Below are positions 16,293 through 51,918 of a stretch of DNA of 64,000 bases, piece by piece. This DNA is from Cymbomonas tetramitiformis. Its lineage: Eukaryota; Chlorophyta; Pyramimonadophyceae; Pyramimonadales; Pyramimonadaceae. Position 1 is the stretch's first letter; every line of letters starts with the position of its first letter. The notes under the pieces were generated by a model that had not been told where the DNA came from, made no database searches, and was given only the letters and a program-made list of their open reading frames with translations. The DNA lies in the NCBI GenBank assembly GCA_001247695.2, contig LGRX02033488.1, forward strand, positions 1 to 64,000, in the 5' to 3' direction. Both the position numbers and the translations under genes were made by a program.

Positions 16293-16375
16293 AACACCTA
16301 AGAAAATATGGTGCAGCCCTTTGCACTATCGTTTGAGAGTTTTCTTGTGGTTGCTGCACGTTCTTCTAGAATTCT

Positions 16376-17803: not shown

Positions 17804-17825
17804 GTTGGTATTCTGCTCGTCAAGG
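17804..17825 (+). promoter_or_regulatory. Probable primer-binding site
   Basis: Directly after the 5' LTR, GTTGGTATTCTGCTCG starts with the TGG expected to pair with a tRNA 3' CCA end. The first six bases TGGTAT agree with the common initiator-Met type, but the rest diverges, so the priming tRNA is uncertain. Confidence 0.6.
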
Positions 17826-32428: not shown

Positions 32429-32433
32429 GTGCG

Positions 32434-34165: not shown

Positions 34166-37100
34166 CGTGTCAAAGAAGATTTTGTGTTAAGGATGTCGGC
34201 GATCTCTTCCATTTGTGCTTCACTCAAATCAACTTGTGTATTTCCATACTTTTCAAAGACGATATCATGCACCATCTTATCCAAGAACTCCAGATCTGGG
34301 GCACCCTCCAGCCATAAGAAGTAGTGCGCGTGCGTAGATCCACGGCTTTGCCACTCATATCGAACCCAATACGCCTGCACACCGAGTGTGCCCCGGCAAA
34401 TATGCTCGATGAATAGCTCGGTTTTGTAGTGAAAGAATTGGGCGACCAAGTGAGGGAAATGCTTCACGTTCTCGACACGCCGAGAGTGCCGCTGACTCTC
34501 ACTTAAATCCGGCGCTTCGGGGTCCCGCTCGGAGCCATCTTCAATGCCCACATGACGCTTGATGAAGCGGTGTAGATATGGGCAAAATGTGTCCGCGTGC
34601 CAGTTGGTGGCGAACACGTTCATATCACCCACTTGATCCGCCATCGCCATTAACTCTTTGCGCCGCTTACCATAGAAGCCAGGTGTGTTGCGTAGGGAAG
34701 CGCCAAATTTTGTGAGATTCGAAAATACAACTTCATTATTCTTCTTTGACATCGCACGTAATTGCCCCACGGTCATATCGCATTCTGTCCTGCGAAAAGC
34801 CCAGCTTTCTTGTTCGCCACCTCCCTCTCGTGGGTGTTCAAAGTGAAATAAGGAAATCGGGAATGCTGTGCAAATCTGCCATCGTAGAAGTGTTGCAAAT
34901 GTCGCGACCACTGAGACCGCATGTCAATGATGACTTACGAGCCTCGTGGAAATCACCTTTTCCAAGAGGAAACAACGTCGGGAATGCTAGTGTGATATAT
35001 CCGGGGGAGCGCTGCTCTGCAACAGAGTATATTGCTTACCGTGGCGGGCCGGCCCGGGGCCGTAGCTCACCACTCCGGGCCGCATGCGGGTCGATGGAAT
35101 ATATGGATGCGGGCCGTGACGTTTGATATGAAAATACCAAAATTTATGCAAAATTATGCGATTTTTACAATATCACCATGCTTAAAATTAAATTTTCGGG
35201 CAATTTGGGAGACTGGCCGTATTGGCCGAAAGCGGGCCAGTGGATTTGCTGATTGCGGGCCGTAAAAGAAAAAAATAAACAATACACACTGCTCTGCAAA
35301 TCGGTTGTTTGCCATGCGTGGGCATCGTCAAAGGGATTATTTTTCGTTCCTCGGCCCAATGATGGTTCCTCCCCAACGCGATCATCTCCTAGCAGCTCGT
35401 TCAAGTCATCCACAGCCTCTTGCATAGGCTCGACGATGCTAGAGGTGATGTTGTGCGGAAGCCCACTATCATGAAACTCGACGTCGAATGTCTTGACGAT
35501 ATCGACGAGCTCCTCCATCAACATAATCTGTCAAACATGGCATGTTTCATTCGCAACCACGACCGAAAAAAATAGCAAGAAAAATGACTTTGAGTCGCAC
35601 CTTGTTGATTTCTGCCTCTCCGATATTTAAGGGCTCCGAACTTAGGTGCTTGCCAAGCTCCCCCACCGTGATAGAGTCATAACGACTCTGTGCAGCATTC
35701 TCCTTGCCGTGCAACATACCGATGACTCGCTCAACGTCCATGTCCAAATCAATATCAATACCGATAATATCAATAGAAAATGCTCTTACCGCCCGTGCGA
35801 GCACTCCGATCCCATCCCGAAGCCATGCTCGCATCACTCTTGAATTGACGTTCGTGTCCCGCTCTTTTTCCACATTCGCGTCACCTTCAAGATCATCGGA
35901 TGTTTCATGGTCCTCGACAACTTGCTCCTCCTCGTAAGCATCACTACCGCCCCCGACGTATTCACGTACATCAAGTCCTTCAGGAACCCCGTCCTCGGGG
36001 AATGCACTCCACGTCTCCTCGTCGAAATCCTCTAAACGAAATGGGGGGACGAGATATTCTCCAGGACGCCATGGATCAAGGATGCCAGATTCGAAGTATG
36101 AGTGGTAAGTACGTAAGAACGCATGCTACTCTCGTACCGCATTTCACCGCACCCTCATCAACTTGAAGGTGTCATTCTTCCCTTGGACTTTATACACAAC
36201 GATTTCCGTGTCTTTTGGCGCTCGGGGCAATTGCTTTGCCACGTGTGAAATGTCGTTCACAAAGTTTATGCACGAGCCAGAATATCCCAACTGCCCGCCA
36301 GATAGTTGGAACACCGAGGTGATGGTTATAATAGGGCTTATCAAAGCTTCTTCAATCGGAGTCAAGGTCCCCCATGTGGTCCGTAAACGATGCCACTCGA
36401 TTTGCCAGGCAGTTGCATTATGCGCGGGCATCCTCATATCCAAATCCAACCCGTTCTCCGGGCACATGAAAGAAGGGTATTGTTGACAAGACTCGCAGAA
36501 GTTGGTCACCGGATGAGGGAGTCCATGCTTACAACCTCGTTCCAAACAGTTCGGACAGGTATGTATCAAATTAGGAATTGATTCCAGACCCTCAAAATAG
36601 CGGTCGACATGCTCAGTTTTCTCAGCCGAACTCATTTCCGAGTGATACTCCCCAACGCGTACGCCACCCGGCAAACCGGCCTTTCGTAAGGCTTTCACTA
36701 CATCCAAGTCGCTTAGTTCCAATCCTTCACTCGCGATACCCGAGGCTGCCCGTTCTTTTTCTTGATCGCGCGACTTGCCGGTGTTGGAAGTCTTACATTT
36801 TCCAGGACGGTCACCCGCGTCTGGAGGTCGTAAAAAGCGTAAATAGGATCGGTTTTTCGGCTCGATGTTGCCCTCGCTAGCCTTGTCCACAGATTCATAC
36901 AGCTTATCACTGACAACATGCGGCAGATCTTCGTCATCCGTGTCGTTAAGATTCATGGCGGTCGCTTTCGCGTCTCCAAAGGCTTGAAACAAATTGACGG
37001 GAGAAACCCCGGTGTGGGGTTGAGGATCAAGTGCTCCCGTCGAGTGCCTCCCATAGTGGGTCGCGTCTTTTAAACGCCGGCGGGTACGTGGCGTGGTTTT

Positions 37101-37206
37101 CGACGGCGGCCTACCCCGTCTCTTCACGCCTTGCATTCCGGACCCTAAGGCGGGGCTTCGCTTAGAAGGCGTAGTTGGCGATAGAGCAAAAGGGATGGGG
37201 GACGTG
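34166..37206 (-). pseudogene. Helitron replication protein (DUF6570-like region and Rep domain), decayed
   Basis: Reading on the minus strand, 37206-36144 holds a basic N-terminal region, a cysteine cluster (CPNCLERGCKHGLPHP) and a DUF6570-like segment (LTPIEEALISPIITITSVFQ, QLGYSGSCINF). In-frame TGA and TAG follow just after LMRVR, then the frame runs on (HAFLRTYHSYFESG). A 73-bp GT-AG intron (35600-35528) joins to LMEELVDIVKTF. After the MITE at 35023-35291 come GYITLAFPTLFPLGKGDFHE, WSRHLQHFYDGRFAQHSRF and the Rep core RGSTHAHYFLWLEGAPD, with its HxH motif, in at least three different frames. The helicase half is missing. The N terminus lies beyond the 14.6-kb Ty3 insertion at 51800-51918; removing the insertion rejoins the frame exactly. 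Confidence 0.87.
35023..35291. mobile_element. hAT-type MITE, copy 2 (269 bp)
   Basis: Same family and orientation as 5871-6150, sharing GCTTACCGTG, GGGCCGGCCCGGGGCCGT, the TTAAAATTAAA stretch and GCGGGCCG words. The ends are CAGAGTATATTGCTTA and, inverted, CAGTGTGTATTGTTTA. The 8-bp target duplication is CTCTGCAA at 35015-35022 and 35292-35299. It disrupts the Helitron gene between the codons for TDLQS and the conserved FPTLFP block. Confidence 0.9.
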
Positions 37207-37211
37207 ATAGC

Positions 37212-37638
37212 TGTAGGAGTCTACACTTGACTTCTTCTCTTCTTTACGGTTTCGGACTTATACTATTCTACACTTATTAAACGACCGCACGAGGTATGCT
37301 TACGATTGGTCAACTATAAGACTTCGGTTTCGTAAATCTTAATAGTTATGCTTATGCTTTCAAGTGTATGCTTTCAATACACAATATACAGCGGATACGG
37401 CTCTTACTTTTTATGTTACAATTCTCAGTTCAGTTCATCTCTCCGAAACGGGTTACTCTTAGAGTTCTTATACATTCAGGAACTCTTTCCATAACTCAAC
37501 TGTACTGAGTACTCCGTACAACAGTCTAGGCACCTCACATCAACATCATTCTGATCGGTCCTACTGTACTCCGTACTGAGTACTCCTGCGTTTTATACTT
37601 AGCCGTTTTTCTTGCTCTTGTGCTTGCCTCCTAGCACA
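37212..37638 (-). repeat. 3' LTR of the methyltransferase Ty3 element
   Basis: 427 bp, TG...CA on either strand. It contains repeated ACTGTACTGAGTACTCCGTAC words, likely part of U3 on the minus strand. Confidence 0.95.
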
Positions 37639-37652
37639 ACTCCCCCCCCCTT
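37639..37652 (-). promoter_or_regulatory. Polypurine tract of the methyltransferase Ty3 element
   Basis: On the minus strand AAGGGGGGGGGAGT abuts the 3' LTR, the expected plus-strand priming site of reverse transcription. Confidence 0.88.
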
Positions 37653-38029
37653 AGGGAAGGTCACGTCCACGCTGACCACGTCGGACCAGTAAAGTTTTTA
37701 TACAGATCTTCTACTGTTGCTCTGAATGATTATACAGGTCTCAGCCGCCTGTTGTCTGGGATGACATTACACTTCCCAAGACACACCGCAATAAGGAGAT
37801 CGACCTCTTAAGCACAAGGGTCGGCCTCTCACCGGTCTGCCATCTGCACTACCAGGCTCCCCCAAGGCTCAAGGTTTCACATCCATTACCACGCTCAAGG
37901 TTTTAAACCTCCCAACACGGTACACTTACAGGGGATGACAATAGGTTTGCCAATTACCTGACAGTTCTCGGGATGCCGGCCCGGAGGAAAGGTTTTAAAC
38001 CTTCACCGCCTCCTCGGAGTGCTAGAGCT

Positions 38030-38345
38030 TTTACCCAGATCTCCAACTGCTGCCCGGTCGTGCCAGGTCCGGAGCCAATGCTCTCGTGAAATGGATTATA
38101 CAGATTTCCACCTGTTGCCTGGTCGCGCCGAGGCTAGAGCCACTGCTCACTTGGATAGATTACCCAGGTTCTCACCTGCCGCTTGGTCATACCAAGGCTT
38201 AGAGCCACTGCTCAAATGGATTATACAGATTTCCACCTGTTGCCTGGCTGTGCCGAGGCTAGAGCCACTGCTCTCTCGGATGGATTACCCAGGTTCTCAC
38301 CTGCCGCCTGGTCTCGCCAAGGCTGGAGCCACCGCTCTTCCCGAC
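38030..38345. repeat. ~62-bp tandem repeats in the 3' region of the Ty3 element, five units
   Basis: Units of the form GATTATACAGATTTCCACCT, then GTTGCCTGG, GCCGAGGCTAGAGCCA and CTGCTC repeat five times just beyond the pol stop codon, with alternation between CAGATTTCCACCTGTTGCC and CAGGTTCTCACCTGCCGC types. They lie between pol and the polypurine tract. Confidence 0.8.
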
Positions 38346-38359
38346 GCTCCCCAACGCTC

Positions 38360-41300
38360 TCAATCGCTAAGACCACTCGCGTCAGATTCCCATCCGCCCT
38401 CAGGTATGATCGTCACCTCCGCTCGCACTCCCGCTAACGCTATCGGTTCCGGCTCAAACTCGGGCGGGTCACTCTCAACAACAGCTGACTGGACTAAAAC
38501 GCTCATCTCGCTCAGATCCTCCCTGACAAGCAGTTCAGACAGGAACGCATGCACCTCTTCATGTAGGGTCAGGTTGTGGAAAAGCTGTTTTAACAGTGCT
38601 GACGGAATCCCATACAAATTCTCTCGCGCTCCCATGCCCTTCGCGAACACACCTCCGGCTCTCATCGCGCGCCCTCCTTGCGCTACTTTCTCGTGCCTAC
38701 CGTGCTGCCGGAAGAACTCGCAAGGCGTATCGGAATCGCATACTCGCAAGGGTGTGCGCAACGGAACGTTGGTCCAGATGTGCGTGGGCTTCCTGTATGC
38801 GGTCCCGTATTTGCAGTACGTGACGAGGTGCGGAGCTGGTAGATTGCTCATGCAGCGACGCGTGTGCAACCCGTGGGGCTCTCTTCCCCTCGGGTTCTCA
38901 ATGAAGTATGCTTCGGGCCTCAAGTACCGGATGATCTCCAATGTCCTACGAACTCGCCTGTCCGCAGCACGCAAATCTCGGATGCCTACCGTCTTCGCTT
39001 GGCTGTACTCTGTGCAAGGTGGGCTAGCCCAGACTACGTCGAAGTGTCCTGGTCTGAACTGTCGATAGTCCCATCGCATGATATCCTCGCAATGTGTGGG
39101 GCCCCACTTGGGCTGAATGTCTACAGCAACTACTTCGCTGTTGGGAAATTGCTTAGTGAACTGCCTCTCGACTGACCCGGTCCCACAAAACAATACAAGA
39201 ATCCTAGACTGGCCGACTGGCTCCTTCTCAAGTGCTGCGGCTCCGTTGACTGGCGGCAGGGTGCTCTGAGCAGATACTCTCGCGAAAGTTCCTACTTCCT
39301 CATCAAACCTCTCCTCTGGCACCCATGGCATTGCTCCGTCTACCTTGAGCTCCTCCGATAGCGTGGTCCATACCGCTCCTGCGGACTCGTCGCGTCTCTT
39401 ACGGACCCTAAGCTTCTCTCGCTCCACTCTCTTAGCCTCGATCCTCTCAAACTCCAACAACGCTCGGTTGGGAACACCGGGCCTGCCGGCTCCGTCCCAC
39501 TCCAGATCCTCTCGGGTCTTCCACTCGTTCTCACTGCGGGGCATTCCTGTCCACTTGACCAGGTACTCTGTCCACCTCCTGCCCTGGCGCTGGCGCGTGC
39601 GCGAACGCTCCACCCTCTCGACGTGGGTTTCCTTGCGCCCGCTGACGTCCAACGGAGGAGGGGGAATCTCCTTAGCTCTCTCAACGAAGCGGCTGCCCGA
39701 CTCTACTGGCGAAAGCCGGTCCACGGTAAACACATCGTGCACTTTCCACTGCTTAGGCGTCTGCAACCTATAGGCCGACGGTGCGCCTCTATCGCTCGCG
39801 GGAAGGGCCATCTGCCTGTCGCTGTGAAAGACTTCCAGCACCCGAAGGGGCCCAAGGCGCTTCTTAAGCAACTTCTTGTGCAACCCGCGGTCGCCCGGCT
39901 GAGTGAGGTGCGTGGCATCCACCCAAACCTCATCGCCTACTGCGTAACTCCTGGACCTGTGACGCGCGTCGTACTGGGCGATCTGTTGCTGCTGAGCTAA
40001 GAGCAGCTTCTCCCTAGCGAGCTGCAACTGGCGAACAAACTGGCGGGCTGTCTCGTGGGCTGTACCCTTTTTTACTGCTGCGCCCCTCCCCCCCTTAGCT
40101 CGGCCTCTCCGTGATGCAAGTGCTGCCTCCACGAAGAAGTCCAGCTGAGAGGCCGGAGCGTGACCATACGTCAGTTCAAAAGGGGTGAATCCCGTGACGG
40201 CGGAACGAGAGTCATTAATGGCGTACTCGACCGGGGTACACCATAAATCCCAATCGTGCTGGTTGGCGTCGACGTACGCGCGCAACATGCGTTCGACCGT
40301 GTGGTTTGTGTGCTCTGCCTGCCCATCACCTTGAGGGTGGTACGGCGTGGTAGAGGCAACCTGGACTCCCATCAACCGATGTAGCTCGAGATGCATCTCA
40401 TCCCTGAAGCGGGAGTCCCGATCACAGACGATCTTCATGGGAGCGCCGTGCAAACGCCACACTTGGTCGAAATACATGCGCGCGATCTGTGCAGCTGAGC
40501 TGTCAGCGTAAAGCATGGGAACTACGTGCACCATCTTGGACAACTTGTCCGTGAAGGTAGCAAACGCGTCGTACCCTCGCTCTGTGCGGGGCAGCCCAGT
40601 GACGAAGTCGATACTAACCACTTGCCACAGTCTTACTGGGACTTGCAGGGGGTTAAGCTGACCGTCTGGATACCCGTTGCGTGGCCGGGTCTGTTGGCAC
40701 ACAACGCAGGATTTGCACCAGTCGGTGACATCCTTGCTCATGCGTGGCCACCAAAAGCGACGGGATACCCTGTCCAGTGTCTTATCCCTTCCTGTGTGCC
40801 CTGCTGCTGGGGACTCGTGTGCTTCGCGCATCACCAGCTCTCTGAGGGGGGAATCCTGAGCTAGCACTAGCTGATACCGCCCTTCTGCCACTCGCCATAT
40901 CATGTCGTCTACCATGCGAAATGTGTCTGTCCTCTGATGTGGGGCTGCGATCAGTTCCTCCTTCAACGAGCCGAGGTACTGGCTGCGTTCGTATTCCGCT
41001 TGCAAGGCGCGGACGAACTCATCAGCCTTCAGTGGGCCTGATGCCGCCCTGGCCCTTGCTGCAACCCCTGTAGTGACTAAAGGCTCGTCGGGTTCTGCCT
41101 CACTGTCCTTTCGCGCAGGCGGCGCTCGGGGCTTTGCCCTGCTGGCTGCTGGGGCCCACACCAGAAGGACCGGCCAGCGCAGCGGGGGTCGACCTCCATC
41201 AGGGGACTCGAAGAGGTGGTTGGGACGACCTTTTTCGTCCTTCGTGTCAAAGACTTTGACCGGATGAAGCCCATACTTGGGGTGAATCAACCGCCTCCAG

Positions 41301-44300
41301 GGGGCGTCATAGTCTGGCAGAAGGAACATCGCCGAGGTGTTTTCCGGATCGGCGCGCCACTCAGCAAGGAAATGCCGAAGAATTCTTTCTATCAAGTCTG
41401 AATCCTTCGTGTAAGGGGGGTTGCACCAAACGTGTTTCCCGCGCCACTTTTCCTTCAAGCAATCGGTCCAATAGGTGTCAACCTGCCGGTTAACGCCCAT
41501 GGAGTCGCAACACGCGTCAACGTCAAACACCCCGTACTGGGCTGCTATCTCCTCAAAGCGCTCCCTGATCAGCTTCCAGTCCTGGCGATCTACGACCTGG
41601 TCGTAGTGGGAGCTACTTTCTGGGGGCTTAACGGGCTCAGGTACCTTTCCGGCTGCCTTTGGATGACTCTGGGCCTCAGGGTGGGGGAACTTCGGGTGAC
41701 TCTGGACTTCTGCTGTGGCCTGTTCCCTAGCTCGGTCTGCTCTGGTCATGACTGCTAGCGATTCGGCATCCCTCAAGGATTTCTCGCCTACTGCTAGGGT
41801 GGCAGCTGCGTCCAGCCAAAGGGCCGGCGACTCTACCCACGTGAGCCCATTCAGATGGGTGAGCTCACCAATGACCGGTGCTGGACTGGTGGGAGGGAAG
41901 GACTCGTCCTCGGAATCACTATACTCGAAGGTGGCGCCTAAGACAGATGTGGGATCCTCGTCCCCTTCGCATCTCTTGCCTTTCGGCTCAGAGTACTCGG
42001 GTCCATCAGATCCATCGGTGGTGCAATCCACTGCCCCGAGGACAGAGGTAGGATCCTCGTCCTCTTCGGACCCCTTGCCTGCCGGTGCGGAGTCTCTGGG
42101 CCCATCCGTGGCGCGATCCACAATCCCTTTTTCCTTCAACCCTTCTCTGGCTGACATTTCCTGATAGTCTGGTCGCCGGGACTGCGCGTCTGGTACTACT
42201 AAACAGCGCCCTGGCACGTGCTCCATCTGATGGACTCCTACCTCTACCAGGTCCTCGTACCAGCGAGCCTGACGTCGGCTGAGCTCCCTAGCTGGGGCGA
42301 AGAGCCACTGAAGGGGTTTATGGTCTCCCATGAGCTTAAATGATGTGAAAATCAGATAATGTCTCCAGGTGACCGTGGTGCAGTGATGGATGGCACAAAG
42401 CTCCCGTTCCCCAGCGTGATAGTTCTGCTCTGCGCTGGAGAACTGCCGGCTTTCAAAGGCCAAGGGCTGTAAGCCTCGTCCCTGATCCTGCATGAGTACA
42501 CCCCCTAGTGCTACTCCACTGGCATCTGTCTGCACAAAGAAGGGTCTGGAACCGTCTGCTGCACCCTTTTGATCGGGTAGGGCCAAGGCTGGGGAGGAGA
42601 TCAAGGCAGTTTTTAGCTGTTTAAATGCTGCCTTTTCATTCTCGCCCCAGGTCCAGTCCACGCCGGATTTGGTGAGGCGGGTCAACGGGTACGCGATATC
42701 TGCGAAGTTCTCGATGTACCTCCGGTAGAAGCCACACATGCCCAGAAACTGTCGCACGTGTGTGACAGTTTCTAGGTCTGGCCAATCGCGTACCGACGCA
42801 ACCTTATCCTGCTGTGGACGACATCCATCCCGATCCACCACATGCCCTAGGAACCGGACTGATCGCTTGCACAATTTGACTTTCGACTTTTTGAGGTAGA
42901 CTGAATTCTTTCGGCATGCCTCCAGGACCTGGCGGAGGTGGTCGAGGTGTACCTCATGGGCGCTCTTACCCGGAACCTCAGCCGAGAAAATCATGATGTC
43001 ATCTACAAATACTCTGCAAAAGGGTAGGTGCCCGAGGTACTGTTGCATCATCCTTTGCCAGGTACTTGGGGAGTTTGACAATCCCATAGGCATGACCAAC
43101 CACTCGTACGCTCCAAAGTGCGTAGTCATTGCGGTTTTCTCCACGTCCTCTGCTTTCATAGGGACCTGCCAAAATCCCCAAAGGGCATCCATCGTAGAGA
43201 AGACGGTAGCCCCTTGTAGATCATCTAGGAGACTCTGGACATCCGGGAGGGGGTACTTGTCCTTGACTGTGATCTCATTGATCTGTCTGTAGTCAATGAC
43301 TAGACGCAACTCCTTGGGATTACTCGGCTTGGGGACCATCAGCACAGGGCAGCCCCACGGAGAGGCCGAGGGTCGTATGTACCCTTTGGCTAAGAGCTCA
43401 TCTAGCTGTTGCCGGAGTTGCCGCAACTCCTCCTGCGACAGCTTGTACCCTCGCCGGTGCAAGGCGTTCCCATTCCAATCTGGCCTGAGCCGGACGCCGG
43501 ACTTGAATTCCCTTGACTGGACTGATTCCGGCAGCTCTGTGCAAATGACATCTGCGAACTCCTTTTCCAGGTCCCTAAGCTGCTGCCAGATTTCCGGCGA
43601 CACCGTCTCGTCTATCTCGTCCTCCGGCGGTTCCGGGGAGGCCTGAGCAGTCTGTGGGGCTGGCGGCGAGGTAGTACCTGGCGGGGCGGCCGGTACCGGC
43701 GGGTCTGTGGTCTGCGGAGCTGGCGGCGGGACTGGTGCCGAGGCTCGCGACTTCTGACTCTGAGGACTCGGGACAGTGGGGACTTTTGGTCCCGGTGGCT
43801 GCTCGGTGGAGGGGCCACTTTCAGCACCAGGCTGACCGACTGCTGCGACCTGGTCACGCCAACGCACTCGCTTACGCCGTGCTCGGGGTCGTCGCTCCGC
43901 GACCAGACCCCGGCCCTGCTGGAGCGCCGCGGCTGCCTGCGCGTGCCAGGTGGGTGGCTTCCCGGCCGCGTGATCCTCTATCGCCTGCCTACGCACCGCT
44001 GGCGGAAGCAACGCAAATGCTCCGTTCGCCTCCTGTTTGCTAGCGAAAAAGCTGAGAGGGTCAGGGTGATCCCCGGCCTCGTCGACCGTACTCGCAAATC
44101 CCTGTGGCCTAATATCCTCGACCACCGCCCCTACTCTCTGCAAATGACACGCTCCTTCCACGTCACTATAGCCGGACTCGGAACTGTCCGAGACCAACCC
44201 TCCCGGCCCCTCAGACTCCTCAGCTCCGTCCGGCACCGCTGCGCTGGGACGCACGCTGACTTCACCATCCTCGGACCCGGAGGAGGGTTCTGACGCTAGG

Positions 44301-46489
44301 CCTGCTACAACATCGTTGGGGGAATCTTCGTCGGAGTCTCCCCCCCCCTTGTTGCAGGCCAACGCGCCAAAAGTCCCATCGGGGCCGAGGTAGACGACGA
44401 AAGCCTGCTCCTCTCTGTTTCGGAGGGTCCGCAGGTCCCGGCGAGCCCGACGTTGGCTCAAAAGGACTCCCTGTACCAGTGCCATTGCCGTGTCCTTGGA
44501 CCGACTGGGGTCCGGTGACCCCGGCGAACAGCCGGTGATGACGACCTCTTCCCTGCCCTTGGTGAACCGGACCGAACCCCAGTTCTTATAATCCAGCGTA
44601 ACCGGGGAAAGGTTCGCCAGCCAAGGACCCCCCAGGATGACATCCACCTTGAGGTCGAGTGGCATTACCCGAAGCTCAACCTGCTGGCCGTAAGACCCCT
44701 TCGACGTCTCAGCAAGGAGCTTGGGCCTGATGCAGGAATTAGCATCATATGTGGTGCCGTCAGCCACTCGAACCCGCATGGCTTGCTCGTGGCGCACCGG
44801 CTTGACGCCGGAGAGCCTCTGCAGTGTACTCTTTGCGATGATATTGGTGGATGCTCCCGAATCCACTAACACCTTGACTCTGACGCCCGCAATCCAGGCC
44901 CAAAACAGCAACAACGTCGGTGTGCGACTGTGCCTGTCGAAACTCCTCGGGCGCGCTCCCATCGAGGACACCGCTGCCAGGGACTCACACCAGCTCGGAC
45001 TGATATCGCCGTCCTGCATTATGCAGTCCAGGCGGGTGACTGACGTTTCTGCGTCGGAGTCACAGTCCGGGAGGCAGTAAGTACACGCGTCCGCTAGCAG
45101 GCCGATGGCGACTGCTTTCTGAACTGCGCTGCGCTCTGGGAAGTCTGGGGGGGACACCGCGACTTGGACTGACGCTGCAGCCAGTTTAGCCGCTATGTGC
45201 TTTCTGACTTGCTCGTCCCGGTGCATCAGCTCATTGTCTTGCTGAAGTTCCCTATTCTCCCTTTCCAACTCCTCCTTTACGAAGGCGTGGAAGTCCGCAT
45301 GGCGTTCTGTTGAGGTAGAAGCCGGGTCCCTACCCTCCAACTCGTACCTGCGCTGCAATCGAGAGGTTCGAAGCGCCTTGTCTTCAGGAGTCAGCCATGG
45401 TCTGCGTTTCGGGCCCAAAGCCTGGCGAGCCCTGCTTCGGGTCAACCACGGCCGACTGGGCTTTGAAGTTCTCTCTGGTGGTGAGAGTTCTTCTCCTTCG
45501 GCAGGCTTGGGTTTGGCAACGCGAACAAACCGTCCGAACTCCTGATCCAAGATGGCTTTGCGTCGGCGATTGAACTCGCGCACCCTGACGAGCCGCTTCA
45601 AGCGCTTATCTAACTCTTCTCGATTCAACTGGGGCTTACTAGTCGTGGGTCCAAGCTTCTGGCTCATCCGCCTTTGCCCTGCCCTCCAAAGCGCAAGGGA
45701 CTTGACCGGCCGGACCTCCGACTCTTCCAGCTTTAGATACCTTTCTAGCGCCCTGATGGCGGAACGCAGGCGAGCACTTGGCTGCTGGGCCTGAAAGGCT
45801 TTCCTAACTCTGGGGGGTAAACGCTGAGCTCTGAACTTCCAGTGCCCGCGAACTCTCGCAACATCCGACCCCTGGTTCTCCAGGTGCTGTTGGTAGACTG
45901 CCCGTGGCTCAACTGTGTGGCTCGACCGGTTTTTACCCCGGGTGTCCGCACCGGTGATCCAACAGAGCAGCTCCCACGGCTCCTCGGGACGCGGAACTGA
46001 GGCGGTCGCTGGGGTTCTGGCGGACTTCCAGAAGTTTGCCTGCTCTCTTTGGACGCGCTGCTCGACCTGTTCCCGCTCAGGAGGCTCTGGGCTTTCCGTG
46101 CGGGTGGCGGCTAGCATGTCTAAACCTTCCTGCTCATACCTCTCGACTCGACTCTGGCTCTTGAGGTGGCGCCTGGCGCTGCCACTAAGGTGTCTCCCAC
46201 ACCTTCTCCACCTATCATGCAGCACCTGCATCGCTGTGGACGCCGGCGCGGGGCCCTTTTGTCCCCCTGACCCCGCAGTGACGGGGCCCGCGCCCTTTAC
46301 TGCGGGGAGGACGCCCCGGGCTGGGGAGCGTCCTCCTGGACAAAATCCAAACCGATGGCAGCCAAAGCTTCCTCCACCGACTCGTCCCCTATTAACGCCA
46401 GGGTGTCCTCCAGGAGGCACTTGGCCCACTCCTTCGGGCGCTGGCTCGCCTGCGGACAGTCGCGGGCATAATGGTCCATGCTCTTGCAC
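38360..46489 (-). CDS. Ty3/gypsy Pol polyprotein with N6-adenine and C5-cytosine methyltransferase domains
   Basis: The frame is open for about 2,709 codons and lacks an ATG where it emerges from gag (residue 1 here is a GTG codon), so it is probably made as Gag-Pol. It lies -1 relative to gag and overlaps it by about 190 bp. Approximate domains: retropepsin with DSGAS at 543; RT at 1015-1190 with FVDD at 1161-1164; RNase H with QTDASG at 1320-1325. A Dam-like N6-adenine methyltransferase follows at about 1630-1780 (FDVDACCD, NPPY at 1690-1693). The integrase has an HHCC finger and a DD35E triad D1961, D2023, E2059. The chromodomain is at about 2287-2350 (EYLVKWTGMPRSENEWK). A C5-methyltransferase-like domain is at about 2425-2600 (LFCGTGSVERQF, PPC at 2490-2492, ENPRG, KPTHIWTN). 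Catalytic residues look intact throughout. A Pro-rich linker separates protease from RT. The methyltransferases may modify element or target DNA; that role is inferred. Confidence 0.93.
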   Translation of the reverse strand: MQEHGPLCPRLSAGEPAPEGVGQVPPGGHPGVNRGRVGGGSFGCHRFGFCPGGRSPARGVLPAVKGAGPVTAGSGGQKGPAPASTAMQVLHDRWRRCGRHLSGSARRHLKSQSRVERYEQEGLDMLAATRTESPEPPEREQVEQRVQREQANFWKSARTPATASVPRPEEPWELLCWITGADTRGKNRSSHTVEPRAVYQQHLENQGSDVARVRGHWKFRAQRLPPRVRKAFQAQQPSARLRSAIRALERYLKLEESEVRPVKSLALWRAGQRRMSQKLGPTTSKPQLNREELDKRLKRLVRVREFNRRRKAILDQEFGRFVRVAKPKPAEGEELSPPERTSKPSRPWLTRSRARQALGPKRRPWLTPEDKALRTSRLQRRYELEGRDPASTSTERHADFHAFVKEELERENRELQQDNELMHRDEQVRKHIAAKLAAASVQVAVSPPDFPERSAVQKAVAIGLLADACTYCLPDCDSDAETSVTRLDCIMQDGDISPSWCESLAAVSSMGARPRSFDRHSRTPTLLLFWAWIAGVRVKVLVDSGASTNIIAKSTLQRLSGVKPVRHEQAMRVRVADGTTYDANSCIRPKLLAETSKGSYGQQVELRVMPLDLKVDVILGGPWLANLSPVTLDYKNWGSVRFTKGREEVVITGCSPGSPDPSRSKDTAMALVQGVLLSQRRARRDLRTLRNREEQAFVVYLGPDGTFGALACNKGGGDSDEDSPNDVVAGLASEPSSGSEDGEVSVRPSAAVPDGAEESEGPGGLVSDSSESGYSDVEGACHLQRVGAVVEDIRPQGFASTVDEAGDHPDPLSFFASKQEANGAFALLPPAVRRQAIEDHAAGKPPTWHAQAAAALQQGRGLVAERRPRARRKRVRWRDQVAAVGQPGAESGPSTEQPPGPKVPTVPSPQSQKSRASAPVPPPAPQTTDPPVPAAPPGTTSPPAPQTAQASPEPPEDEIDETVSPEIWQQLRDLEKEFADVICTELPESVQSREFKSGVRLRPDWNGNALHRRGYKLSQEELRQLRQQLDELLAKGYIRPSASPWGCPVLMVPKPSNPKELRLVIDYRQINEITVKDKYPLPDVQSLLDDLQGATVFSTMDALWGFWQVPMKAEDVEKTAMTTHFGAYEWLVMPMGLSNSPSTWQRMMQQYLGHLPFCRVFVDDIMIFSAEVPGKSAHEVHLDHLRQVLEACRKNSVYLKKSKVKLCKRSVRFLGHVVDRDGCRPQQDKVASVRDWPDLETVTHVRQFLGMCGFYRRYIENFADIAYPLTRLTKSGVDWTWGENEKAAFKQLKTALISSPALALPDQKGAADGSRPFFVQTDASGVALGGVLMQDQGRGLQPLAFESRQFSSAEQNYHAGERELCAIHHCTTVTWRHYLIFTSFKLMGDHKPLQWLFAPARELSRRQARWYEDLVEVGVHQMEHVPGRCLVVPDAQSRRPDYQEMSAREGLKEKGIVDRATDGPRDSAPAGKGSEEDEDPTSVLGAVDCTTDGSDGPEYSEPKGKRCEGDEDPTSVLGATFEYSDSEDESFPPTSPAPVIGELTHLNGLTWVESPALWLDAAATLAVGEKSLRDAESLAVMTRADRAREQATAEVQSHPKFPHPEAQSHPKAAGKVPEPVKPPESSSHYDQVVDRQDWKLIRERFEEIAAQYGVFDVDACCDSMGVNRQVDTYWTDCLKEKWRGKHVWCNPPYTKDSDLIERILRHFLAEWRADPENTSAMFLLPDYDAPWRRLIHPKYGLHPVKVFDTKDEKGRPNHLFESPDGGRPPLRWPVLLVWAPAASRAKPRAPPARKDSEAEPDEPLVTTGVAARARAASGPLKADEFVRALQAEYERSQYLGSLKEELIAAPHQRTDTFRMVDDMIWRVAEGRYQLVLAQDSPLRELVMREAHESPAAGHTGRDKTLDRVSRRFWWPRMSKDVTDWCKSCVVCQQTRPRNGYPDGQLNPLQVPVRLWQVVSIDFVTGLPRTERGYDAFATFTDKLSKMVHVVPMLYADSSAAQIARMYFDQVWRLHGAPMKIVCDRDSRFRDEMHLELHRLMGVQVASTTPYHPQGDGQAEHTNHTVERMLRAYVDANQHDWDLWCTPVEYAINDSRSAVTGFTPFELTYGHAPASQLDFFVEAALASRRGRAKGGRGAAVKKGTAHETARQFVRQLQLAREKLLLAQQQQIAQYDARHRSRSYAVGDEVWVDATHLTQPGDRGLHKKLLKKRLGPLRVLEVFHSDRQMALPASDRGAPSAYRLQTPKQWKVHDVFTVDRLSPVESGSRFVERAKEIPPPPLDVSGRKETHVERVERSRTRQRQGRRWTEYLVKWTGMPRSENEWKTREDLEWDGAGRPGVPNRALLEFERIEAKRVEREKLRVRKRRDESAGAVWTTLSEELKVDGAMPWVPEERFDEEVGTFARVSAQSTLPPVNGAAALEKEPVGQSRILVLFCGTGSVERQFTKQFPNSEVVAVDIQPKWGPTHCEDIMRWDYRQFRPGHFDVVWASPPCTEYSQAKTVGIRDLRAADRRVRRTLEIIRYLRPEAYFIENPRGREPHGLHTRRCMSNLPAPHLVTYCKYGTAYRKPTHIWTNVPLRTPLRVCDSDTPCEFFRQHGRHEKVAQGGRAMRAGGVFAKGMGARENLYGIPSALLKQLFHNLTLHEEVHAFLSELLVREDLSEMSVLVQSAVVESDPPEFEPEPIALAGVRAEVTIIPEGGWESDASGLSD

Positions 46490-49400
46490 AGACGGCAGCC
46501 CTCGTACTCTGGGGAGCCGAGTCGTTGCCCTGTGGGTGTCGGAGCGCCAGCGGATGTCGCCATGGCTAGCAGCTCCTCCGTGACATCTACGTGGGCCAGC
46601 AGCTGGACCGAGCGGCTCGTCTTATCCTGGCTCTGCCGCAACTCCCGCTCAGCCTCTATGGCCCAAGTCAGGAGTTCGTGGCGGCCTTTACTGGCCGTCC
46701 GGCTCAGAGTCAGAACCGAAGCGCCTTTCCTCTCGGCTATAAGGAAGACCTTCCTCCTTATCTCCGGTATCAATCCCGTAAGGAATATCTCCAGCAGCTC
46801 CTCTTCCGGCACCGGAGAGGTGAGCTCGTGGGCAGCCAGCATGCTCACGATGTCGTGAGCAAGGTGCACCCCGTCCCAGAACTCGCGGACCGTGCGAGTC
46901 TGTCTGTCCTGACTTTGACGCACGCGACGCAGGAACGGACCGATCGACGCCATTTCCCCCTTGTCGGGCATCACCAGTTGCGCCAAGGGAACCACTATGA
47001 CGTCCAAGGTGAGGTTCTTACCTTCCCGAGCCTCCGTCAACACCGAGGAAAGCTCGCGGTACTCGGAGCTGAGTTTGCCGAAGCAGTGTCTGGCCACTTC
47101 TGACAGCAGGGAGTGGTCCGACAACACCTTCTCCTCACCCCCGCTCTCTAGTGGTCCCAGACGCGCCATCTCCATGGCGTAGCGCACCGGCTCCAGTTCC
47201 CGAACCTCCCTGACTTGCCGAACAAATCGGAGGAGCCGACCAAAGACGTGGGACGACCCCTCCACCTCTGTGTGGTATTTGTCCACTGCCTTCTCCATGG
47301 CTCTGGTGGCCTCCTTGAGAGCGTGCTGCTCGTCCTTACGACTGTAATGGCTCCGGGGCTCCCTGTAACGAGAGGAAGACGAGAAGGTGAACTGGCTGTC
47401 GCCATCCCCGTCTTCGCCATCGCCGCCAGGGTCCTCGTCCGGACTCCCCGGGCCTCCCGGCCCTCCAGGGTCACCGCCCCCCGAGCCACCAGGACCACCA
47501 TGACTGCCGGCACCGGGCATCTCCGAAAGCTCGTTTGGCTCCGAGTGCTCCAGTTGAGGGACCATCCCCCCCCCGTCTCCCGGTGTGTCTGCCGCCTTAG
47601 GAATCGGAGGTGGCATCACAGCCGGAAAGTGGTCGAAAGCACCGGGCCACACGTCCGCGGCGCAAAACCCACACACCGGCAGGTACACCTTTTTCATGAA
47701 CGCCACCACACTTCTCTTAGCGCTCGCCTGACACGCCCACATACGCACCGGGCTCTCCTCGTGCCCGCACCCACAGCGAGCGCAGCTCTCTGCGACGGAC
47801 GCCAAGGCCGTCGTGAGACTGTGAATCACCTGGGCCCCGAGGACCCTGTCCTCGTCCGAGAACTTTGTCTTCAGGCACTGCCTGATCTGGTTGGAAGGGT
47901 GTAAGCACCCGGCGACCTGACCAAGGGTGCGATACCTACGAGCAGCGTCGTAAAACAGGCGCTGGGCATCGATCCCCGAGGTGGCATACCCGACCACGTG
48001 CTTCCGGAGGGCGTCGCAGACCTGTATAGGAAGGGAAATAAAGTCCCATGAGTGCGGTGGAGACGCTGTCACGTCCGCGCGCGACTCCTCCGGAGGGCTT
48101 TGAACGTCCCGGTTCTCGACGTCACAGGTGACGACGGAAGCCGGCTCTACCAGCTCATGTCCCTCTCGGGAGATGGGCGTCTCCTGAACCGGACTCGACG
48201 CTGCCGCTGAGGGCCCCCGAGCGTCTGACTCCACGGGCCCTGGGGGCGAGGCCTGAACCAGGGCGAGCCTTTGGACTTGTGACTCTATGACCGCCTGCAG
48301 CCTCTCCTCCAGCTGGGCCTCGGCTGCCGCTCGCCGCTCCTCGGCGGCTACCTGCTGAGCGACGCTCTCGTCGACAGCCAACTGCCGGGCAGTCTCCCGG
48401 GCTTCTGCGGCCAGCCGGTCTGCAGCCCAGCGCTCTTCGACAGCGCGTCGCTCGGAGACCCTGCGTTCCTCGGCAGCGCGCTGATCGGAGATCCTGCGCT
48501 CCTCGGCAGCTCTTTGACTCTCTTGGAGTTGCCGAGACAGCTGTTCCAGGCGAGCCTCGGCAGCTGCCTCCCGAGCTTGCGACTCCTTCTGCCAGGCTTC
48601 CTTCAGCTCTTGCAGGTCCTGACTGTTCCTGCTCGAAGTGGACTCCGGGGACGACGACGTGTTCCCTGAGGAAGTCGGACCGGGGTGCGGGACCGATGGT
48701 GCTCGACTGGGCTTCCGGGTGCGAGGCACCGGGCGACTGGGGCCGCTCGGCTTAGGCGCCTGAGTCCTGGGCCTCGGACGTTCCGCGGGATGCTCTTCCT
48801 CCGATGAGGACGAGAGGGGAGCAAACCGGTTCGACCAGTTCCCACCGGGGGCTGCGGAACTCGGAGGTGCTGCACCTGACTTCCTAAGACCCCTGTGTGA
48901 CTTCCGGGTGCGGCCGCTCATTCTGACGGCCGCGACGACCGCTCTCCTTACCTCCTGGAGGTCCGCCCCTTGGCGTACCAGCTCCCCTGGTCTGCCGGCG
49001 TTGATGGCAAAGACAGAGAATCTACACCTCTCAAGGGAGTTGTGAGGGTCCTCGCGCTTTTGCTGCATCAACACCCTGGACTCGGAGACTGACTGCTGGT
49101 GGATCTCCAGGCGATAAGCGCCGTCCTCGGAGAGCCCATAGTCCTTGAGCTGGAACCACATTAGCCCTGACAGCGGGTGGTCTTTCCCCAGGCGCTTTAG
49201 GCCTCGACGGATGTCCTGCCACATAGACTCCTGGTCGGAATCCGAGCAAGAGCTGACACCGGATGAGGTTCCCGCCTTCCTTACCGGACGGCGGGCACTC
49301 GTTCCCTGGGACGAGTCCGAGCTGACTGGGGTCGTCCTGGGGAGCCGGCGCCACTCGCGAAGACACCTCCTGCCCATCTGGGTCATCCGGTGTCTCCGGG

Positions 49401-50589
49401 CTCCAACCCACCAGGTGCTCCTCTCCTTGGCGAGCATCGTCTGCTGGTGCCATGCCATGAAGACAGCTCCAGCTTGACGTCTGCCTCTGCGCCACAGACC
49501 CTGTGTCTGGACGACATGCTGGCGCCATGCTGCGAAAGAGGACTCGACCCGGCGCCGACTGCCTTTGTCAAACAGGCCTTGAAGTTGGGCGACCTGTTGG
49601 GTGACGTCATTCCACGCTTGGAATGCCAGGCGCTGGAGCTCGCGCTGATGCGCTGACTGGTCCGTCCTGGCCCTCCATGCGACCCACGCAAGCCGCGCTG
49701 TTGCGCGCTGACGAGATGGCAGGGAGACTCTCGCACGTCGTTGCGCTGAATTCAGCGCCCAGGTGCTCCATTGACGGAGGGCCAATGCGAGCATGGACTG
49801 ACGTCGCTCTCCTCGCCAAGCCGGATTGGGCTGGATGCGAGACTCGCGCCCCCGTGACTGGACGACGTCTAGCTGCTCTGGGCGCCGGACATCATCAGAC
49901 TCCCCTTCTGCCGGGGGACTCCAGTCACTGGCTCGGTAAACCTCAAAGCGCCCTGGGGCACTGATGAGATTCCCTTGCTCGCTCCCCACGAGGGAAGAGA
50001 GGGAGGATGCTGCCGGTCCCGACGTCGGTTCCTGACGGACGACCCTACTACTCGCACTCCTGCTGGACGCAGGGAGTGGGGAGAAGGGAGCTGCCGAGGG
50101 GTTCAACCCCTTAGCAGAGCGGTCCGAGTCCGACCCGGAGCCGGCGCCTGCCGCCGGCGGTGCCGGAGCCTCGGGCGACGCACGCTTCCGGCGCGCCGGC
50201 TGCCGTAGCGCCGAGCTCAATGCGAGCTCGGACACTGGCTCAACCTCACTGACCCTCGCTGGTGAAGGGGTGTTTGGTGGCGAGGCCCTGGGGGGCCCAC
50301 CAGACAACCCTGGAGGGGCTCTCAGGGGCGTGCGCGCCGGTGTAACCTCGAGGGTTTCACCGACGTATTGGCGCGCAAGCGCGCGCCGCACTCCCCCCCC
50401 CCTCTCACGGGAGCGCCAATCCCGGCTGTCTGACCCGCCTGCTGCGCCCCAGAACTCCCCAGAGCCTGGGCCGGCTGGCAGGTTCGCAGCGCGAGACCCC
50501 GACCGACCGGACCCCACGGCCGAGCCGGGGGCGGCGCCGGCCCGACCCCCCCCCACGCCGGCCCGACCGACCGAGGCATTCCTCCTCAT
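46297..50589 (-). CDS. Gag polyprotein with Sfi1-like helical repeats, coiled coil and zinc knuckle
   Basis: A clean ATG at 50589 opens a 1,430-residue frame, very long for a Ty3 Gag. The N terminus is Pro, Arg and Ser-rich. Residues ~263-416 contain six spaced motifs of the type LAFQAWNDV, SSFAAWRQH, AVFMAWHQQ and RCLREWRRL, at about 27-36-residue intervals, resembling Sfi1/centrin-binding helices. Residues ~660-775 form a charged coiled coil (repeated AAEERR). A Gly/Asp/Pro linker leads to a capsid-like helical region (~1090-1340). A CCHC zinc knuckle CRLCKSMDHYARDC follows near 1365 and the frame ends at 46297. Gag assembles the virus-like particle and packages RNA. The extra N-terminal modules have no established function. 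Confidence 0.9.
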   Translation of the reverse strand: MRRNASVGRAGVGGGRAGAAPGSAVGSGRSGSRAANLPAGPGSGEFWGAAGGSDSRDWRSRERGGGVRRALARQYVGETLEVTPARTPLRAPPGLSGGPPRASPPNTPSPARVSEVEPVSELALSSALRQPARRKRASPEAPAPPAAGAGSGSDSDRSAKGLNPSAAPFSPLPASSRSASSRVVRQEPTSGPAASSLSSLVGSEQGNLISAPGRFEVYRASDWSPPAEGESDDVRRPEQLDVVQSRGRESRIQPNPAWRGERRQSMLALALRQWSTWALNSAQRRARVSLPSRQRATARLAWVAWRARTDQSAHQRELQRLAFQAWNDVTQQVAQLQGLFDKGSRRRVESSFAAWRQHVVQTQGLWRRGRRQAGAVFMAWHQQTMLAKERSTWWVGARRHRMTQMGRRCLREWRRLPRTTPVSSDSSQGTSARRPVRKAGTSSGVSSCSDSDQESMWQDIRRGLKRLGKDHPLSGLMWFQLKDYGLSEDGAYRLEIHQQSVSESRVLMQQKREDPHNSLERCRFSVFAINAGRPGELVRQGADLQEVRRAVVAAVRMSGRTRKSHRGLRKSGAAPPSSAAPGGNWSNRFAPLSSSSEEEHPAERPRPRTQAPKPSGPSRPVPRTRKPSRAPSVPHPGPTSSGNTSSSPESTSSRNSQDLQELKEAWQKESQAREAAAEARLEQLSRQLQESQRAAEERRISDQRAAEERRVSERRAVEERWAADRLAAEARETARQLAVDESVAQQVAAEERRAAAEAQLEERLQAVIESQVQRLALVQASPPGPVESDARGPSAAASSPVQETPISREGHELVEPASVVTCDVENRDVQSPPEESRADVTASPPHSWDFISLPIQVCDALRKHVVGYATSGIDAQRLFYDAARRYRTLGQVAGCLHPSNQIRQCLKTKFSDEDRVLGAQVIHSLTTALASVAESCARCGCGHEESPVRMWACQASAKRSVVAFMKKVYLPVCGFCAADVWPGAFDHFPAVMPPPIPKAADTPGDGGGMVPQLEHSEPNELSEMPGAGSHGGPGGSGGGDPGGPGGPGSPDEDPGGDGEDGDGDSQFTFSSSSRYREPRSHYSRKDEQHALKEATRAMEKAVDKYHTEVEGSSHVFGRLLRFVRQVREVRELEPVRYAMEMARLGPLESGGEEKVLSDHSLLSEVARHCFGKLSSEYRELSSVLTEAREGKNLTLDVIVVPLAQLVMPDKGEMASIGPFLRRVRQSQDRQTRTVREFWDGVHLAHDIVSMLAAHELTSPVPEEELLEIFLTGLIPEIRRKVFLIAERKGASVLTLSRTASKGRHELLTWAIEAERELRQSQDKTSRSVQLLAHVDVTEELLAMATSAGAPTPTGQRLGSPEYEGCRLCKSMDHYARDCPQASQRPKEWAKCLLEDTLALIGDESVEEALAAIGLDFVQEDAPQPGASSPQ

Positions 50590-51372
50590 CTGAATACATG
50601 GGCATAGTATGCGTGCTATGCGTGAGATTCAATCTAGCTAAAGCCGAAAGTGTACACGACACACGTGGCAACTAGCAACCGCCGATCTAGAAATTTACCA
50701 CTTGCGCCCGAGCACAAGTGGCTACACCGGCCGAAGCGCGGAGATTTCTGGAAAGGAAGATCCTAGAAAGCTAAAGCCCCATGGGGGACATCAAACGTTG
50801 CACGCCCGCAAATTAACCAATTGAAAAGCGGTTGGTATGGCAACTAGCACCCGATCCCAGGAATACGCCACTTGCGCGCGAGCACAAGTAAGCACACCGG
50901 CCGAAGCGCGGAGATTCCCGAATAGGGGGGACTAGAAGGCTAAATTAAAGGTAGGGGAATTCCCGAACCAACCCCGAATTTCAGCAAAGGCTTACGCAAA
51001 ATTGAAAAATTTGCGCAGCGCTTCCGCCGCGAAGGGTCGAAATTGCCGAAAAACGGAGGCGATTCGGATTTCCCGCACCTGCGAGTCCAAAAAGCACGTA
51101 TGCGTGCTATGCGTGTATGCGTGCTAGGACTAAGGCAACGCTCGCACCTTAAAAGATTGTCGTCGAGCTAGATTTCTCCACACCGACGCGGCTCCAAGCA
51201 ACCTGGAACCCTCAATCCCACACACCACCGCGCAACAAGAACGAGAGCACAGGCATTCTCGATTTCGTAGTGCAAGTACTCGCTAACTAATCGCACAAGG
51301 CGGGGCGGGTTGATCAGAATTTGCGCAAGAAGGACAAGGAAGCTACGTGAAAACACGAACTAATTACCATTT
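50590..51372 (-). other. 5' leader of the methyltransferase Ty3 element with a 172-bp-spaced duplication and possible primer-binding site
   Basis: Segments starting at 50667 and 50839 both contain GGCAACTAGCA, CCACTTGCG and ACACCGGCCGAAGCGCGGAG, so about 110 bp is duplicated. Next to the 5' LTR, read on the minus strand, AATGGTAATTAGTTCG begins two bases after the LTR with TGG, a plausible but unassigned primer-binding site. No gene is seen. Confidence 0.7.
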
Positions 51373-51799
51373 TGTAGGAGTCTACACTTGACTTCTTCTC
51401 TTCTTTACGGTTTCGGACTTATACTATTCTACACTTATTAAACGACCGCACGAGGTATGCTTACGATTGGTCAACTATAAGACTTCGGTTTCGTAAATCT
51501 TAATAGTTATGCTTATGCTTTCAAGTGTATGCTTTCAATACACAATATACAGCGGATACGGCTCTTACTTTTTATGTTACAATTCTCAGTTCAGTTCATC
51601 TCTCCGAAACGGGTTACTCTTAGAGTTCTTATACATTCAGGAACTCTTTCCATAACTCAACTGTACTGAGTACTCCGTACAACAGTCTAGGCACCTCACA
51701 TCAACATCATTCTGATCGGTCCTACTGTACTCCGTACTGAGTACTTCTGCGTTTTATACTTAGCCGTTTTTCTTGCTCTTGTGCTTGCCTCCTAGCACA
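51373..51799 (-). repeat. 5' LTR of the methyltransferase Ty3 element
   Basis: 427 bp, identical to the 3' LTR except for one base at 51746. It should carry the promoter for minus-strand transcription. Confidence 0.95.
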
Positions 51800-51918
51800 A
51801 TAGCATTACGGCGAGGGGCATAGCCAGGGGATGGCGACATCGAGGCGTCGGATAAGGCAGCGTTGAGATCCGGAAGTAAGGGTTGTGCGAAACGATCGGG
51901 CGGAGATTGATCGCCCAT
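51800..51918 (-). pseudogene. N-terminal fragment of the Helitron gene, severed by the Ty3 insertion
   Basis: From the ATG at 51918 the minus frame reads MGDQSPPDRFAQPLLPDLNA and continues to PRRNA at the insertion point. Joined at the single ATAGC target, the frame runs on into TSPIPFALSPTTPSKRS and the basic region at 37136. An acceptor-like TATCTAG immediately precedes the ATG, so an upstream exon is also possible. Confidence 0.8.

Follow-up and report, generated by a model that had tools for sequence, protein, structure and literature searches.

KnitGypsy-Dnmt3 of Klebsormidium nitens is, like the element described here, a Gypsy retrotransposon with a C5 methyltransferase (MTase) in its Pol frame and under purifying selection (PMC5890265). 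However, its enzyme is of the host Dnmt3 type, it has DIRS-like repeats, and no adenine MTase is named where PMC5890265 describes it, whereas the element from Cymbomonas tetramitiformis has one together with a short C5 enzyme. SymbioDIRS-Dnmt3 and SymbioLINE-Dnmt of Symbiodinium are also retrotransposon-encoded C5 MTases, but they belong to other retrotransposon classes, and no adenine MTase is named alongside them in those passages (PMC5890265). The same source tested a DNMT3 carried by a DIRS element, reports that it methylated CG, and argues that it acts on cDNA. DIRS1-like elements carry an MT domain that shares with our element both its family (PF05869) and its place, in the order reverse transcriptase (RT)-RNase H-MT (PMC3266345, PMC3783388); its function was called unknown in the relevant section of PMC3266345. 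DIRS elements have a tyrosine recombinase, and their terminal repeats are unusual (PMC3266345, PMC3783388), in contrast to the long terminal repeats (LTRs), 5-bp target site duplication (TSD), retroviral-type integrase, chromodomain, and second MTase of the Cymbomonas element.

Among Cymbomonas scaffolds with >10,000x coverage, three of four were reported to have a chromodomain, an RNase H, and a cytosine MTase (PMC5741210). These are probably fragments of the family described here or of its sister families, but they were not assembled into an element, and the adenine MTase goes unmentioned in the part of the paper that presents them. Chlamyvir-related chromoviruses are likewise Ty3/gypsy elements with a chromodomain and also occur in Cymbomonas, but the word “methyltransferase” is absent from the main text of PMC10675990. 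Thus, each capture is already known singly (DIRS-Dam and KnitGypsy-Dnmt3), and the pair in one element appears to be new: the open-access literature searched describes no element with both an adenine and a C5 MTase, in agreement with the earlier note on this DNA.

We analyzed a stretch of 64,000 nucleotides (nt) of C. tetramitiformis DNA (the window); matches of 100% to two CYMTET proteins identify this alga as the host. It contains an intact, recently mobile chromovirus with both MTase domains in one Pol. Its features, all on the minus strand, are as follows.

37212..51799, minus strand: complete Ty3/gypsy chromovirus-type LTR retrotransposon (LTRs, TSD, coding frames)
51800..51804, minus strand: TSD GCTAT, 5' side (flank sequence)
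51373..51799, minus strand: 5' LTR, 427 bp, TG...CA, one mismatch to the 3' LTR
46297..50628, minus strand: Gag-like open reading frame, 1443 amino acids (aa) stop to stop
38360..46621, minus strand: Pol, a single open frame, 2753 aa stop to stop
44624..44896, minus strand: aspartic protease, Pol 576-666 (PF13650, 9.6e-07, above the cutoff)
42245..43336, minus strand: RT and RNase H, Pol 1096-1459 (PF00078, PF17917, PF17919)
41252..41608, minus strand: N6-adenine-type MTase domain, Pol about 1672-1790 (NPPY at Pol 1734-1737)
40334..40852, minus strand: integrase zinc-binding domain and core, Pol 1924-2096 (PF17921; PF00665 below the cutoff)
39491..39661, minus strand: chromodomain, Pol 2321-2377 (PF00385; W45 kept, Y24 and Y48 positions replaced)
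38564..39211, minus strand: C5-cytosine-type MTase domain, Pol about 2471-2686 (Cys2536 in PPC, Glu2575 in ENP)
37639..37652 (approximate bounds), minus strand: polypurine tract AAGGGGGGGGGAGT, directly before the 3' LTR (sequence read)
37212..37638, minus strand: 3' LTR, 427 bp (LTR alignment)
37207..37211, minus strand: TSD GCTAT, 3' side (flank sequence)

The boundaries proposed in the earlier note proved exact to the base, and its near-identical LTRs differ at one base (a 428-base alignment with a single mismatch, 427 bp each after trimming to TG...CA), with GCTAT on both flanks. The TG...CA LTRs, the short TSD, and the order protease-RT-RNase H-integrase are those of Ty3/gypsy elements, and the chromodomain C-terminal to the integrase is that of chromoviruses. 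As the earlier note had read it, one intact Pol frame holds an adenine MTase (NPPY), a chromodomain, and a C5 MTase (PPC, ENPRG); the full order is protease-RT-RNase H-adenine MTase-integrase-chromodomain-C5 MTase. Pfam matches in Pol included RVT_1 (3.5e-30), RT_RNaseH (1.3e-27), and Integrase_H2C2 (1.5e-23), as well as two below their cutoffs, the integrase core rve (4.6e-04, 20.8 bits versus a curated cutoff of 32.6) and SH3_Tf2-1 (1.1e-04). A DIRS identity was ruled out by the H2C2 and rve integrase found instead of a tyrosine recombinase; Pfam's Phage_integrase was not matched in Pol or Gag. The Gag-like frame has a CCHC zinc knuckle at residues 1377-1393 (Pfam zf-CCHC, E value of 1.1e-3, slightly under the cutoff). 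Pol lies in the −1 frame relative to gag and overlaps it by ∼325 nt, and no gag-pol slippery heptamer was found (pattern X XXY YYZ, read in the frame of gag). Rfam at gathering thresholds matched nothing in the window.

Profile searches of Pol recovered both MTase families. The adenine domain, between RNase H and integrase, matched the Pfam family Dam (PF05869) at Pol residues 1678-1746 (3.1e-08, above the cutoff); the profile scored 40.1 bits versus a cutoff of 28.1 (16/16), while TIGR01712 was far under its cutoff. The C5 domain, placed after the chromodomain, is a short form of ∼215 aa with PPC at Pol 2534-2536 and ENPRG starting at 2575. In the whole-Pol scan PF00145 fell below its cutoff of 22 (9.8e-04, 19.1 bits), but the domain scanned alone passed it (23.8 bits), and 38 of the 39 members of the C5-domain alignment matched PF00145 at an E value of ≤0.01. 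The domain also matched PHROG 757, “DNA methyltransferase” (E value of 9.6e-16), and its confident fold model matched DNMT3A/B and M.HhaI; a search of solved structures by sequence gave no meaningful match. Motif VIII of canonical C5 enzymes is QxRxR. The stretch aligned to it here is YGTAYRKPTHIW, which is a distinct variant but a conserved one.

The chromodomain stood up as a domain but is doubtful as the “histone reader” of the earlier note. Chromo (PF00385) matched Pol 2333-2374 above its cutoff (1.9e-07, 31.3 bits versus 25.1). The classical (group I) chromodomain that reads methyl-lysine has an aromatic cage of Y24, W45, and Y48, as described in the section of PMC3350952 on these domains. 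Mapped by eye on an alignment of 22 sequences, the window chromodomain keeps one of the three (W45 only) and so falls outside classical group I.

The element is present in many copies, with at least 40 scored places at 99 to 100% identity among 874 first-look candidates. The 2753-aa Pol frame was open in 13 of 19 scored copies of the same family, and in all 19 own-family copies that were compared (the window copy and 18 fetched ones) the C5 region was open and contained PPC and ENP; these were the best-scoring copies, a choice that favors intact frames. Both MTase domains were present in 24 of the 35 relatives found, 23 of them in the order RT-Dam-H2C2-chromo-DNMT. Within this genome the pair occurs in four families (the window family, P0001, P0031, and a family at 74%), and Pols with both domains also appear in other public assemblies. 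The scope is wider than the single element first noticed and takes in a whole diverged clade, some of whose members lie in other public assemblies.

We compared 22 diverged Pols belonging to one clade. Their C5 domains were invariant in the catalytic Cys, the catalytic Glu, and the GTGS loop (22/22). The adenine motif NPP[YF] was kept in 17; it was lost in 4, and the domain went undetected in 1, so the adenine enzyme is dispensable in some lineages. Distances of both MTases correlated with those of RT and integrase (ρ of 0.65 to 0.76) about as closely as those of RT did with those of integrase (0.68). Of 24 C5 domains borne by transposable elements (TEs), 22 formed one clade (support of 100/96). 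Those of P0020 and P0021 fell outside it on long branches, and separate C5 captures are therefore possible. Because diverged relatives carry the same pair, the MTases look like functional components of the elements and not an accident.

Between families, pairwise dN/dS gave no value for most pairs because dS was saturated, and within-family pN/pS was used instead. Across 16 copies of a sister family, pN/pS was 0.062 for Dam and 0.083 for the DNMT versus 0.46 for the RNase H-Dam linker (Fisher P values of 1.2e-4 and 5e-5, respectively). Two other Pol linkers gave 0.13 and 0.11, and the constraint on the MTases was not significantly stronger than on these. By this measure, both domains are under purifying selection in the sister family. 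Neither of the outcomes that the earlier note named as refuting it, namely, no profile hit for either domain or decayed passengers in related copies, was observed. A reading of the domains as decayed passengers was rejected by the intact frames, the conserved motifs, and the pN/pS values.

We give a probability of about 0.5 to the reading that the two MTases are parts of the replication machinery, kept across the clade, that act in cis on the element's own nucleic acid; their function would be to modify its cDNA or RNA. Because they are made as parts of Pol, both would be packaged together with RT and integrase, and they would modify the element's nucleic acid inside the particle or the preintegration complex. 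The C5 enzyme would methylate new cDNA, or else the DNA where the element inserts; cDNA or genomic RNA would be the substrate of the adenine enzyme. Such marks might make the incoming copy resemble host DNA or RNA, or shield it from nucleases, and they need not persist at CpG after integration.

The substrate of the adenine enzyme may be RNA, because the nearest fold to its confident model was the RNA-cap enzyme PCIF1/CAPAM, which also has an NPP[F/Y] motif (the relevant part of PMC8868631). This weakens the earlier note's view of an enzyme acting on DNA. It is possible, if doubtful, that the enzyme is a PCIF1-like writer of m6Am or m6A on the cap or body of the element's transcript and that only the C5 enzyme acts on DNA. 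However, the best Foldseek E value was 0.024, the profiles matched by the domain are those of phage-type DNA adenine MTases (phage proteins are ∼32% identical to it), and a Pfam scan found no WW domain in Pol. The C5 domain comes after the chromodomain within one frame; tethered to it and to integrase, it could methylate chromatin around the insertion and recruit silencing, by which the copy would be hidden or preserved. We consider such target-site marking unlikely, given the incomplete cage in the window subfamily and the lack of a consistent excess of C>T at CpG among copies, which also counts against the earlier note's proposal that genomic copies are marked. In the coding part of the sister family, third-position C>T was higher at CpG than elsewhere (0.187 versus 0.120, P = 0.013), but the comparison over all positions gave a P value of 0.149, and the P0031 family showed the opposite (0.015 versus 0.024, P = 0.159). 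Own-family singletons numbered 1 at 746 CpG sites versus 14 at 2279 others in the RT region (8 loci), and 2 at 110 versus 5 at 315 in the C5 region (18 loci); two further singleton sets were left aside because they included fetched flanks possibly outside the element. CpG observed/expected, which also speaks against target-site marking, was 0.86 in the element body, 1.04 in the LTR, and 0.98 to 0.99 in the window flanks.

That the domains are idle scaffolds, kept for binding nucleic acid or S-adenosylmethionine (SAM) or for Pol folding and not for methyl transfer, strikes us as quite improbable: the degraded adenine motifs in otherwise recognizable domains and the atypical motif VIII stretch would fit it, but the invariant C5 residues and loop and the prevalence of NPP[YF] argue against it. 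Fusion by chance or misassembly is barely credible. Nothing beyond a draft assembly of 25,745 contigs speaks for it, and it is refuted by independent copies, namely, the four families and the Pols of other assemblies, the intact Pol of identical length in most scored copies, and the purifying selection.

A more specific form of the cis-acting reading, which we advance tentatively and think rather unlikely in full, is that a diverged chromovirus clade, with this marine alga as one of its hosts, labels its own nucleic acid with two different marks within one replication cycle. These would be 5mC on cDNA and N6-methyladenosine on RNA (PCIF1-like) or cDNA, written by a captured stand-alone, possibly viral, C5 enzyme and a DIRS-type MT domain. 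If true, the element would encode its own dual “self” label, evading host surveillance and enabling high copy number. Retrotransposons with a single MTase are known yet unexplained; here, an LTR element keeps both chemistries under selection. With many near-identical copies, and with the Cymbomonas nanopore reads made for PMC10675990, the question is directly testable.

The source of the C5 enzyme may be a stand-alone family of virus- or phage-like kind and not the host. Among proteins of similar length, its nearest relatives were stand-alone enzymes encoded in public assemblies, and distant relatives occurred in phages; the search was length-limited, with longer host DNMTs outside its limits. 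Prokaryote genomes gave only 8 loci from 23 pattern matches. The best of these, L130, is filed as a Verrucomicrobiaceae metagenome-assembled genome (MAG) but itself encodes RNase H-Dam-H2C2-integrase-chromo-C5 (domains identified by eye), and it is therefore probably a misbinned eukaryotic element. Phage records gave 11 C5 matches among 50,697, and the best 80 viral contigs were 29 to 39% identical to the domain. In the tree, 11 of 12 viral C5 sequences fell outside the group of TE-borne and stand-alone enzymes. When viral sequences were scanned a second time, using the sister stand-alone enzymes as queries, relatives at 29 to 42% were found.

The window contains the element and three further features:
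37212-51799, minus strand: complete LTR retrotransposon, recognized by its LTRs, flanking repeat, and reading frames
34162-37220 and 52014-52883, minus strand: Helitron-like gene cluster beside the element (Pfam matches at 34162-37220)
17231-17805 and 31867-32430: second direct-repeat pair, 95% identical and 14.6 kb apart
8142-10580 and 13254-16325, minus strand: two frames on the same strand (Pfam matches)

The two 427-bp LTRs differ at a single position, which agrees with the earlier note's description of them as near-identical. GCTAT is present at both flanks, and a G-rich purine tract lies directly 5' of the 3' LTR. A gag-like frame of 1443 aa, with a weak CCHC knuckle, is overlapped by ~325 nt by a 2753-aa Pol in the -1 frame. 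The order within Pol is protease, RT, RNase H, Dam-type (adenine) methyltransferase (MTase), H2C2 zinc domain, integrase, SH3-like domain, chromodomain, and C5-type (cytosine) MTase. Both MTase types and a chromodomain are thus in a single Pol frame, as had been claimed.

The genome analyzed (851.7 Mb, 25,745 contigs) differs from the published long-read Cymbomonas assembly (914.3 Mb, 35,945 scaffolds; PMC10675990). A 2-kb probe found at least 40 scored places at 99-100%, counting the window (first-look candidates, n = 874). Among 19 same-family copies scored with the related protein P0001, the window included, the open frame was exactly 2753 aa long in 13; these 19 were the best-scoring copies, and the 13/19 share does not apply genome-wide. 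The other six had open frames of 2515 to 2750 aa, and none of the 19 had a stop within the match. In a comparison of 18 fetched copies plus the window, the C5 region was open, with PPC and ENP intact, in 19 of 19. Two C. tetramitiformis proteins were found in the genome at 100% identity, CYMTET_43851 over its whole length and CYMTET_39547 over a matched part of 1294 residues; CYMTET_32376 is 98% identical to the element's C5 domain.

The earlier note had proposed looking in related elements for both domains and for purifying selection, and both were found: 24 of 35 relatives carry both MTases, and among 16 score-selected copies of a sister family, whose aligned Pol residues match the window's at about 50-53% identity, pN/pS from single-nucleotide variants was 0.062 for Dam and 0.083 for C5. 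Therefore, purifying selection acts on both MTases, less strongly than on integrase (0.023; RNase H, 0.041). In the same copies, the chromodomain had a pN/pS of 0 (5 synonymous variants, 0 other) and the RNase H-Dam linker one of 0.46. Both MTases differed from that linker (Fisher P = 1.2e-4 for Dam and 5e-5 for C5); they did not differ significantly from two further linkers (0.13 and 0.11). All three catalytic motifs were intact in these 16 copies.

The domain order is identical in 23 of the 24 two-MTase relatives, the exception being P0012, whose full C5 domain is N-terminal. In P0020, too, the C5 domain opens the frame rather than closing it, and P0012 has an additional weak match at its C-terminal end. 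Another of the 24, P0017, has a weak, degraded adenine domain. The C5 domain alone was found in 5/35 relatives and the adenine domain alone in 6/35, but P0022, one of these, is no Pol, and several others are prematurely ending gene models; such cases do not demonstrate absence of the second domain. Across the C5 clade (22 Pols), the catalytic Cys and Glu of C5 are invariant; NPP[YF] is intact in 17 and degraded in 4 (P0009, P0011, P0017, and P0035), and the Dam domain was undetected in 1 (P0019). Among these Pols the C5 domains have a median identity of 49%; for Dam the median is 41% (minimum, 14%). Distances between pairs of Dam or C5 domains track those of RT and integrase (ρ = 0.65 to 0.76), which correlate with each other at ρ = 0.68; chromodomain distances track less well (ρ = 0.29 to 0.44).

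The earlier note's "histone reader" is unproven for this element because, of the aromatic cage, the window copy retains only W45, the Y24 and Y48 positions being nonaromatic (mapped by eye). Aromatic residues occupy all three positions in the relatives P0009, P0015, and P0017. In its cage residues the element's chromodomain resembles group II chromodomains, whose ligand is described as unknown. The precomputed domains of P0010 list a PHD finger (PF00628) but not a chromodomain, of which a weak match is still there.

Being made inside Pol, the MTases should accompany RT and integrase into the particle. The likeliest and most economical role appears to be that they modify cDNA or RNA of the element itself, either ahead of integration or as it takes place; the adenine enzyme may act on DNA or on RNA. 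A cDNA-modifying role has also been argued for a DNMT3 carried by a DIRS element, an enzyme that methylated CG when tested (PMC5890265). Within the scope of CpG context and young copies, the signatures speak against lasting, heavy CpG methylation. CpG observed/expected came to 0.86 for the element body, against 1.04 for the LTR and 0.98-0.99 for the flanking sequence, and there was no consistent rise in C>T at CpG among the element and related-family copies compared. The sole raised test was at sister-family third positions (1.55-fold at CpG, P = 0.013).

As to precedent, published work describes DIRS elements with a PF05869 domain (PMC3266345, PMC3783388), C5 enzymes in gypsy, DIRS, and LINE elements (PMC5890265), and a ParB-MTase protein in algal DNA transposons (PMC12477816). 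In Cymbomonas itself, scaffolds of high copy number have been reported to carry a chromodomain, RNase H, and a cytosine MTase (PMC5741210); the accessible part of a 2025 eukaryotic DNMT survey does not mention Cymbomonas (PMC12344493). The earlier note knew of no described element with both MTases and a histone reader, and no element with both MTases was among the matches listed from the open-access literature.

A prokaryote-genome locus filed under a Verrucomicrobiaceae MAG (L130; contig NHEN01000032.1, 1-3822) reads by eye as RNase H-Dam-H2C2-integrase-chromo-C5 MTase and probably represents a eukaryotic element that was assigned to a bacterial genome by mis-binning; a same-strand frame downstream looks OTU-protease-like by eye. 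The Symbiodinium natans protein P0022 has a split C5-domain relative beside viral-helicase-type (PF01443) and HNH (PF01844) domains.

In the window, the element adjoins the DUF6570 end of the Helitron-like cluster (Helitron_like_N, E = 4.6e-19; DUF6570, E = 1.6e-07), and the DUF6570 open frame (36144-37220) begins just within the 3' LTR; the frame on the element's other side had no Pfam match. The second repeat pair, which encloses a 613-aa frame with no Pfam match, is possibly an older LTR element. The frames at 8142-10580 and 13254-16325, one with AAA helicase parts and a weak cold-shock match and the other with AAA_12 and a PARP catalytic domain, are perhaps a single gene.
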